From contig NZ_CP017675.1 in assembly GCF_001870225.1 (NCBI RefSeq), positions 1-64,000 of the forward strand: a DNA stretch of 64,000 nt, written 5' to 3'. The notes under the pieces were generated by a model. It was not told the origin of the DNA, searched no databases, and saw only the letters and a list, made by a program, of their open reading frames with translations. Source of the DNA: Gloeomargarita lithophora Alchichica-D10 (lineage in GTDB: Bacteria > Cyanobacteriota > Cyanobacteriia > Gloeomargaritales > Gloeomargaritaceae). The position numbers were made by a program, and so were the translations under genes. Of this stretch, positions 19,603 through 42,048 are shown one piece after another (the stretch's first letter is position 1; each line of letters begins with the position of its first letter).

Positions 19603-19722
19603 GGACACCGCTAAAAATAGGTCGCAGGGGGGCACCCCCCGCCCCAGAAGCACCTGCGGTGTATGGTTCTCGGTAATATCTGCATTCCAGCGAGATAACT
19701 TTCTTCTGGTTCAAATAAATAG
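19603..19722 (+). repeat. Dispersed repeat, long form, with left terminal repeat
   Basis: GGACACCGCTAAAAATAG, GGTCGCAGGGGGGCACCCC, an extra arm (AGAAGCACCTGCGGTGTA), GGTTCTCGGTAATATCTGCA, CCAGCGAGATAACTTTCTTC and TTCAAATAAATAG are all present. The terminal GAGGTGTCC is replaced by AAGATA. It begins 3 bp after the stop of the preceding small gene. Confidence 0.85.
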
Positions 19723-19816
19723 AAGATATAGCTAAGTAGAGTAAGGTTGTCGTCTCAAGATTCTGTTGATCAAAGAAATTGCGCCCGCTGTTGCGTCATT
19801 AATTAAACCGTGATTA

Positions 19817-19936
19817 GGACACCGCTAAAAATAGGTCGCAGGGGGGCACCCCCCGCCCCAGAAGCACCTGCGGTGTATGGTTCTCGGTAATATCTGCATT
19901 CCAGCGAGATAACTTTCTTCTGGTTCAAATAAATAG
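19817..19936 (+). repeat. Dispersed repeat, second identical long copy
   Basis: It is identical to 19603-19722 as part of the 171-bp duplication. Its right end was fused to the left end of the 20128 copy through the palindrome TAGAAG-ATA-CTTCTA before the 181-bp element entered. Confidence 0.85.
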
Positions 19937-28250: not shown

Positions 28251-28400
28251 TATAGCAATCCTAGCTGAGTATGGCTACGCCACGCTATCGCTAACGCTAT
28301 GAGAATAGCGGTCGCAGGGGCATCCCCCGTCCCTGGTTCTCGGTAATATGGGCATTCCAGTGAAATAGCTTTCTCTTCGTTCCAATAAATAGAGATGTCC
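28251..28400 (+). repeat. Dispersed repeat, hybrid form, upstream of mutS
   Basis: It starts with the alternative terminal repeat TATAGCAATCCTA, carries a GCTACGCCACGCTATCGC insert, then GCGGTCGCAGGGGCATCCCC, TGGTTCTCGGTAATATGGGC and the type A right end AATAGAGATGTCC. TATAAT follows at about 28404. Thus the left end is of one class and the right end of the other. Confidence 0.82.
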
Positions 28401-40682: not shown

Positions 40683-40967
40683 ATGGCGCAGGCAATCTGG
40701 GAAGGCGTGGTACTGGCAGAAAGCGACCGTTATGAGGTGGTGGAAAACAATGTGTACTTCCCGCCGGAAACCTTGAAGATGCAGTATTTTCAGCCTACCA
40801 ATACCCACACCACCTGTGGCTGGAAGGGGGTCGCCAGTTATTACACCATAGCCGTTGATAACAAGGAAAATAAAGATGCGGCCTGGTATTACCCGGAACC
40901 GAAGGCGGCGGCCAGCAATATCAAGGGCTATGTGGCCTTTTGGCGGGGTGTGCAGGTCAAACGTTAG
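40683..40967 (+). CDS. DUF427 domain-containing protein
   Basis: The 94-residue protein is a complete DUF427 domain: WEGVVLAESDRYEVVENNVYFP, TNTHTTCGWKGVASYYTIAVD, AAWYYPEPKAAASNIKGYVAFW. These small beta-tent proteins are widespread; their role is not established. Confidence 0.93.
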   Translation: MAQAIWEGVVLAESDRYEVVENNVYFPPETLKMQYFQPTNTHTTCGWKGVASYYTIAVDNKENKDAAWYYPEPKAAASNIKGYVAFWRGVQVKR

Positions 40968-41009
40968 GTAAATTGATGCCGGTGCATCCATGCTTGGGGG
41001 TTTTTTCCG

Positions 41010-41748
41010 ATGGCCTTTACGGATTTCCAAACGATCGGTGAGGTTCAGGAGCGATTTTTGGTAAAATATCAAAGTCAAAACTCTGTCCAAGTTAATACTA
41101 TAACCATTAGTCAGGAGGACACCTCTATTTATTTGCACCCGCAGAAAGTTATCTCGCTGGAATGCCCATATTACCGAGAACCAAGGGCGGGGGGTGCCCC
41201 CCTGCGACCGCTAATTTTCAATTGATAGAGGTGCCCAGGAGTTGATTGCAGAACTGGAATTCACGGAAAAGTTTATTGATACCCGTGTATCAGAATTTGC
41301 GATTAGGGAAAATTTGATTTTTCCAACCCTTAAAGCCGCCTATCGCCCTTATGCTAATTTATTTTCCCTATGGAGTCATCGGTTTATTCGCTATGATGAA
41401 ACGTTGGTGGGAACCCCGGATTACTTGGTATCCCAGCGTTCAAATTTGGGTAAGACCGTTTTGGGGAAACCTTTGCTGTTAATTGCAGAAGCTAAAAAGA
41501 ATGATTTTGATGGGGGTTGGGCACAGTGTCTTGCCGCTATGGTTGCTGCTCAGAAGATGAATGAGCAGGCCATGACCATCTATGGCATTGTCACCGATGG
41601 TAAAATGTGGCAATTTGGTAAACTGGAGAAGGATTGTTTCACTTTTAATGAACGCCTCTATACCCTGGATAATCTATCGGAACTGATGGGGGCTTGGGAT
41701 TTTATTTATACGCAGTTGCAAGCTCAGTTAATGTGTTATGTGAACTAG
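41010..41748 (+). pseudogene. Nuclease-like protein gene split by a dispersed repeat
   Basis: The N-terminal part (MAFTDFQTIGEVQERFLVKY, from 41010) runs into a repeat at 41117 and stops inside it at 41225. The rest resumes at 41241 (LIAELEFTEKFIDTRVSEFA) and ends at 41748. Joining 41010-41116 to 41241-41748 gives a clean frame of 204 codons with the junction reading ISQE-LIAELEF. It resembles a cyanobacterial family with a nuclease-like core (ETLVGTPDYLVS, LLLIAEAKKNDFDGGWAQCL: a D...E-A-K site). The distal part could still be translated from TTG 41242, but the intact product is lost. Confidence 0.85.
41117..41236 (-). mobile_element. Dispersed repeat as 120-bp insertion with terminal inverted repeats and 4-bp target duplication
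   Basis: On the plus strand the element starts GGACACCTCTATTTATTTGC and ends TTGATAGAGGTGCCC; the termini are 11-bp inverted repeats with one mismatch. AGGA flanks both sides (41113-41116 and 41237-41240). The inside, read on the minus strand, has GCGGTCGCAGGGGGGCACCC, TTGGTTCTCGGTAATATGGG and CCAGCGAGATAACTTTCT. This copy defines the family's ends because the disrupted frame is known. Confidence 0.9.
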
Positions 41749-41760
41749 GGAGGAACCAGC

Positions 41761-42048
41761 GTGGCGACGGAAATTCTGGAAAAACCAAAAACGGGCGGGC
41801 AGCGCAAACACGCCCCAAATTACAAGGTGTTATTACACAATGACGACCACAACAGCATGGAATATGTGGTGGAATCCCTGATGAAAACCGTGCCTAGCCT
41901 GTCCTGGATGGATGCGGTGGCGGTGATGATGGAAGCCCACAATACGGGGATTGGTTTGGTAATTGTCTGCGCCCAGGAACCGGCGGAATTTTATTGCGAA
42001 GGTCTGCAAAGGCGGGGGTTGACCTGCACGATTGAACCGGAATGCTAA
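41761..42048 (+). CDS. clpS: ATP-dependent Clp protease adaptor ClpS
   Basis: ClpS delivers N-degron substrates to ClpC/ClpAP. The 95-residue protein has the binding-pocket segment NYKVLLHNDDHNSMEYVVESL and the helical core MDAVAVMMEAHNTGIGLVIV. The start is GTG 41761 with GGGAGGAACC upstream; no earlier Met is available. The CPBP gene begins 7 nt before its stop. Confidence 0.93.
   Translation: MATEILEKPKTGGQRKHAPNYKVLLHNDDHNSMEYVVESLMKTVPSLSWMDAVAVMMEAHNTGIGLVIVCAQEPAEFYCEGLQRRGLTCTIEPEC

Follow-up and report, generated by a model that had tools for sequence, protein, structure and literature searches.

How does a nuclease-like gene come to lie in two pieces in the cyanobacterium Gloeomargarita lithophora Alchichica-D10, and does the gene survive the break? 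The question arises at positions 41010–41748 of the window, i.e., the 64,000-nt stretch of DNA that we analyzed, which opens contig NZ_CP017675.1. The genome it comes from (G000) is a single contig with 99.9% completeness. Working from raw sequence, a first-pass annotation described a gene “caught in the act” of being split by a mobile repeat, and this proved right in its main points. The insertion site reads, in order, ATTAGTC, AGGA (41113–41116), GGACACCTCTAT...ATAGAGGTGCCC (41117–41236), AGGA (41237–41240), and GTTGATT, i.e., a 120-bp element with AGGA on each side, as the annotation had noted. The interval is 739 nt long; subtracting 124 nt (the element and one AGGA) leaves 615 nt, or 204 codons and a stop codon. 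The features of the locus are listed in the table below. No Rfam family matches in 40900–41800.

Features of the split gene, the inserted element, and the flanking genes (window positions)
Feature	Position	Strand	Remarks
Upstream neighbor, DUF427 protein	40683–40967	+	Conserved synteny anchor
Split gene, 5′ fragment	41010–41225	+	71 aa: 35 gene codons, then element sequence until TGA at 41223–41225
AGGA, left copy of target duplication	41113–41116		One copy, AAGA, in orthologous empty sites
120-bp MITE, family termini GGRCACCTCTAT	41117–41236	+	G002 and G004 lack it at the orthologous site
Left terminal inverted repeat, GGACACCTCTAT	41117–41128	+	17–23 bp of homology to the end of the partner IS
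Hairpin core GAACCAAGGGCGGGGGGTGCCCCCCTGCGACC, G+C-rich	41178–41209 (bounds approximate)	+	Also in second MITE family
Right terminal inverted repeat, GGGCACCTCTAT on minus strand	41225–41236	-	Terminal 19 bp fit the right end of the partner IS at 18 of 19 positions
AGGA, right copy of target duplication	41237–41240		Sequence
Split gene, 3′ fragment, open frame	41242–41748	+	168 aa; entire PD-(D/E)XK core, TPDY ... EAKK
Downstream neighbor, ClpS	41761–42048	+	Conserved synteny anchor

Two sister genomes provide the empty site. In G004, a genome of the same genus, the orthologue is uninterrupted and lies in the same DUF427-gene-ClpS neighborhood. It is 204 aa long, the length of the frame that the first-pass annotation had restored by removing the element and one AGGA. 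The residues at the junction are VSQELMDEL in G004 and ISQ|ELIAEL in the window gene, and the 5′ fragment aligns to residues 1–35 of the orthologue. The insertion point is also empty in G002 (OV696605.1, Gloeomargaritales cyanobacterium VI4D9). At the DNA level, the junction is GTTAGCCAAGAATTGATG in both sister genomes and ATTAGTCAGGA[element]AGGAGTTGATTG in the window; since both empty junctions have a single target copy, one 4-bp copy is ancestral. About 20 homologues from many cyanobacterial families, 28–47% identical, are continuous across the insertion point, with neither a natural break nor unrelated sequence there. These orthologous empty sites support the earlier proposal that the repeat has moved, and neither of the observations that the first-pass annotation named as refuting its reading is borne out.

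The 120-bp element contains no ORF and no transposase gene, and its terminal inverted repeats, GGACACCTCTAT and GGGCACCTCTAT, match at 11 of 12 bp. It belongs to a large family. At least 53 stretches of G000 are related to it (E ≤ 0.001, with 40 of 356 candidates scored), ~40 of which are near full length or comprise the left three quarters; among the matches listed, the closest copies reach 95.8% identity across all 120 bp. Terminus-like sites with ≤1 mismatch number 367 in this genome, compared to 41 for a reversed-pattern control. Each of the seven genomes of the genus that were searched contains related stretches, and G002, G004, and G005 have many. Exact 4-bp duplications flank 22 elements in a sample of 56 from G000 that have both ends, a subset of all copies (shuffled mean 1.9, maximum 7); 3-bp and 5-bp flank matches are rare. 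Given this frequency and the multi-copy family, the AGGA duplication is not due to chance. Two features count against the explanation that we favor. An exact 4-bp match is missing from 34 of the sampled elements, which are presumably old or degenerate, or else mis-paired or composite; and the AGGA duplication is G-rich, whereas most duplications in the family are A+T-rich. Elsewhere in the window, two near-identical stretches ~214 bp apart (19603–19850) each contain a MITE-like core along with the right end TTTTTAGCGGTGTCC; this is a local duplication that takes in a degenerate element.

The likely source of mobility is found in a sister species. G002 carries a 1,243-bp element with the same termini as the short element, encoding a 343-aa transposase that matches the IS5 family model NF033581 (270.5 bits, with a cut-off of 140) and has DDE_Tnp_1 and DUF772 domains. 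At least 19 copies in G002 have an intact, nearly identical transposase, and 16 of 20 of these IS5 elements are flanked by exact 4-bp duplications. The right-terminal 19 bp of the 120-bp element match the right end of this partner IS at 18 of 19 positions, and the sequence common to the two is limited to the terminal 17–23 bp. Two comparisons confirm the ends that the first-pass annotation had drawn for the element: the duplications throughout the family and the termini of the partner IS. Because the IS5 elements of G002 share its termini and make 4-bp duplications, we conclude that the element is a MITE mobilized by an IS5 relative. An IS5 transposase of this type presumably did the moving.

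We therefore hold, with high confidence, that the element is a MITE moved in trans into the nuclease-like gene by an IS5-family transposase. MITEs are small, non-autonomous DNA transposons that carry no genes. Acting in trans, an IS5-family transposase would have recognized the ~12–19 bp inverted termini of the element and joined the element to the nuclease-like gene where AGGA had been cut in staggered fashion; repair of the gaps would then have copied the 4 bp, giving the duplicated target.

It also counts against this explanation that no intact IS5 partner and no match to NF033581 were found in the complete G000 genome. It does retain two short remnants of a G002-type transposase, one of them adjoining a MITE of the same family. 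Since only decayed remnants are left, “caught in the act” is an overstatement. Transposition looks to be a finished burst in this genome. Most likely, a burst driven by this IS5 element came to an end once its autonomous copies had disappeared, as they presumably did, from the G000 lineage.

Two other accounts of the insertion have to be set against movement by an IS5 relative. The AGGA match could be a coincidence, with the element native to the gene or with two genes arranged naturally side by side. Chance 4-bp matches do arise, in ~3% of shuffled flanks; however, two empty orthologous sites and ~20 unbroken homologues refute this account, and once the element is subtracted, the frame has precisely the orthologue's length. 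We give this account almost no credence. It is also conceivable that the mobilizer was a transposase other than the G002-type IS5, e.g., another DDE element of G000, where an intact G002-type transposase was not found and which has further transposase fragments bearing a DDE_Tnp_1 domain. Yet the ends, the terminal 17–19 bp, and the 4-bp length of the duplication all fit the G002 IS5; termini of the MITE family bound no other DDE_Tnp_1 locus among those checked in G000; and the two remnants of the matching transposase persist. A different mobilizer is consequently very improbable.

The fate of the gene is less settled than the origin of the insertion, and here the alternative concerns only the step of inactivation. 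Residues 53–196 of the orthologue match the PADLOC profile PD_DExK (PDLC01472, on the CRISPR-associated list; E 5e-44), which supports the “nuclease-like” label in the first-pass annotation, and the motifs TPDY and EAKK appear in the homologue alignment, with PEY instead in some homologues. The profile and the D...ExK motif support classifying the gene product as a predicted PD-(D/E)XK nuclease-like protein. Beyond this resemblance to PDLC01472, no Pfam family passes its cut-off for the disrupted gene, profile searching of the PDB returned no relative among solved structures, and a single-sequence structure model of the G002 gene product has a pLDDT of 36. The insertion breaks the 5′ frame, and the gene probably no longer yields its normal product, with loss of function the probable outcome. 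The first-pass claim of inactivation thus holds as likely rather than proven, since the whole PD-(D/E)XK core remains in an open distal frame. That distal ORF might still be translated into a 168-aa protein, by re-initiation after the TGA at 41223–41225 or from a TTG at 41242, in which case the gene would be changed rather than destroyed. The PD_DExK match lies wholly within it, its conserved residues are kept, and an AGGAG sits just 5′ of the TTG. However, the ORF has no well-placed start: the AGGAG abuts the TTG with zero spacing, no ATG lies nearby, and no promoter-like site was found. In addition, the first 35 residues are conserved among homologues, and a recent break would likewise show no decay. 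We regard a translated distal ORF as unlikely, though less so than either alternative account of the insertion, and continue to favor inactivation.

The distal fragment has no internal stop codon, and its dN/dS relative to G004 is 0.09, the same as for the neighboring DUF427 gene, which makes the insertion a recent event compared with the divergence of the species. Purifying selection acted on the gene over most of the period since that divergence, and no decay is visible after the insertion.

The same gene has been hit a second time. In G002, it is broken near codon 192 with a TATA duplication (L031, 3440–4712; L119, 1330–1475). The 5′ part, ending in TTTATTTATA|, abuts a complete IS5 copy near 2,008 kb. 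The last codons, starting with |TATAGCCAATTACAAG, come after a family MITE that lies upstream of clpS at 2,105.5 kb. At the corresponding point, G004 has TTTATTTATAACCAATTACAAG, with one TATA; comparison of the break sequences with this single TATA indicates an independent insertion of a related element with a 4-bp duplication. The two halves of the gene are ~97 kb apart in G002, having been separated by a later rearrangement, for which an inversion between two oppositely oriented elements is the simplest account. Comparison of the outer breakpoints in G002 with relatives gave no match to an ancestral order. The outer breakpoints were also considered as a palindromic terminator between two neighboring genes, a reading that we rejected because the substrate-binding-protein gene beside one breakpoint was not found near cobM in G004, G000, or G005, and because a similar TGTTGATCTT sequence borders another IS remnant (L064).

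The DUF427-clpS interval (window 40968–41760; L117, L120, L121, L122, and L033) is a variable slot. G000, G002, and G004 have the nuclease-like gene there, whereas the slot is empty in G005 and G003 and, judged by eye, contains a toxin-antitoxin-like pair in G001 and G006. G004 has a similar toxin-antitoxin-like pair and a partial clpS copy nearby.

The hairpin core of the element is not confined to this family. A core of the form GAACCA....CGGGG...CCCCTGCGACC is common to the IS5-type MITEs and to a second MITE family with ends TATAGCAATCC, and it is found at 166 places with ≤1 mismatch, compared to none for a reversed control. The likely partner of the second family is a 1,151-bp IS630-like element (DDE_3) with ends TATAGCAATCC/GGATTGCTATA, at ~2156841–2157991 of G000 contig C1 (L176, 1371–2521); its transposase is split over two reading frames, and the whole element (~2,156.8–2,158.0 kb) sits inside a first-family MITE. 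Among sampled loci, IS5-type ends lie on both sides of 39 cores and TATAGC ends on both sides of 11, and a further 11 cores have one of each; because the sample was picked by IS5-type ends, the counts do not give proportions for the genome. Some IS5-type MITEs contain a nested MITE with TATAGCAATCC ends or form a half-and-half join with one (L137, L151, and L176; window 28310–28400). Nesting followed by recombination at the core is a candidate explanation for the mixed ends that would need nothing new. It is possible, although we lean against it, that in this genus two MITE families with IS5-type and IS630-type ends share the hairpin core and trade halves or nest, placing the core under two mobilization systems, with the gene-splitting element as one product and the gene between DUF427 and clpS as a repeated target, hit independently in G000 and G002.

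Bacterial IS-related MITEs, including Correia, Nezha (in cyanobacteria), and MITEAba12, have been reviewed (PMC10969869), as have cases in which MITEs interrupt genes, including the mcy genes of Anabaena (PMC10969869). The window family resembles them in being short and non-coding, with terminal inverted repeats, target duplication, many copies, and an interrupted gene; unlike the named examples, it has its own termini, GGRCACCTCTAT, together with a 4-bp duplication. Likewise, its G002 partner agrees with the IS5 family (NF033581, transpos_IS5_4) in score, DDE_Tnp_1 and DUF772 domains, and 4-bp duplications, whereas the 120-bp element has no transposase and shares only the terminal 17–23 bp with the IS. 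In the library searched, no report on MITEs or IS of Gloeomargarita was found. The locus is a clean, well-documented example of MITE insertion into a gene, by a mechanism already well established for bacteria, including cyanobacteria (PMC10969869).

The site gives a ready empty/filled pair, and members of one transposon family have independently interrupted a single gene in two species. The Gloeomargarita group comprises the cyanobacteria usually placed nearest plastids. For a large MITE family of this group, the ends, the target duplication, and the likely mobilizing transposase are now fixed.
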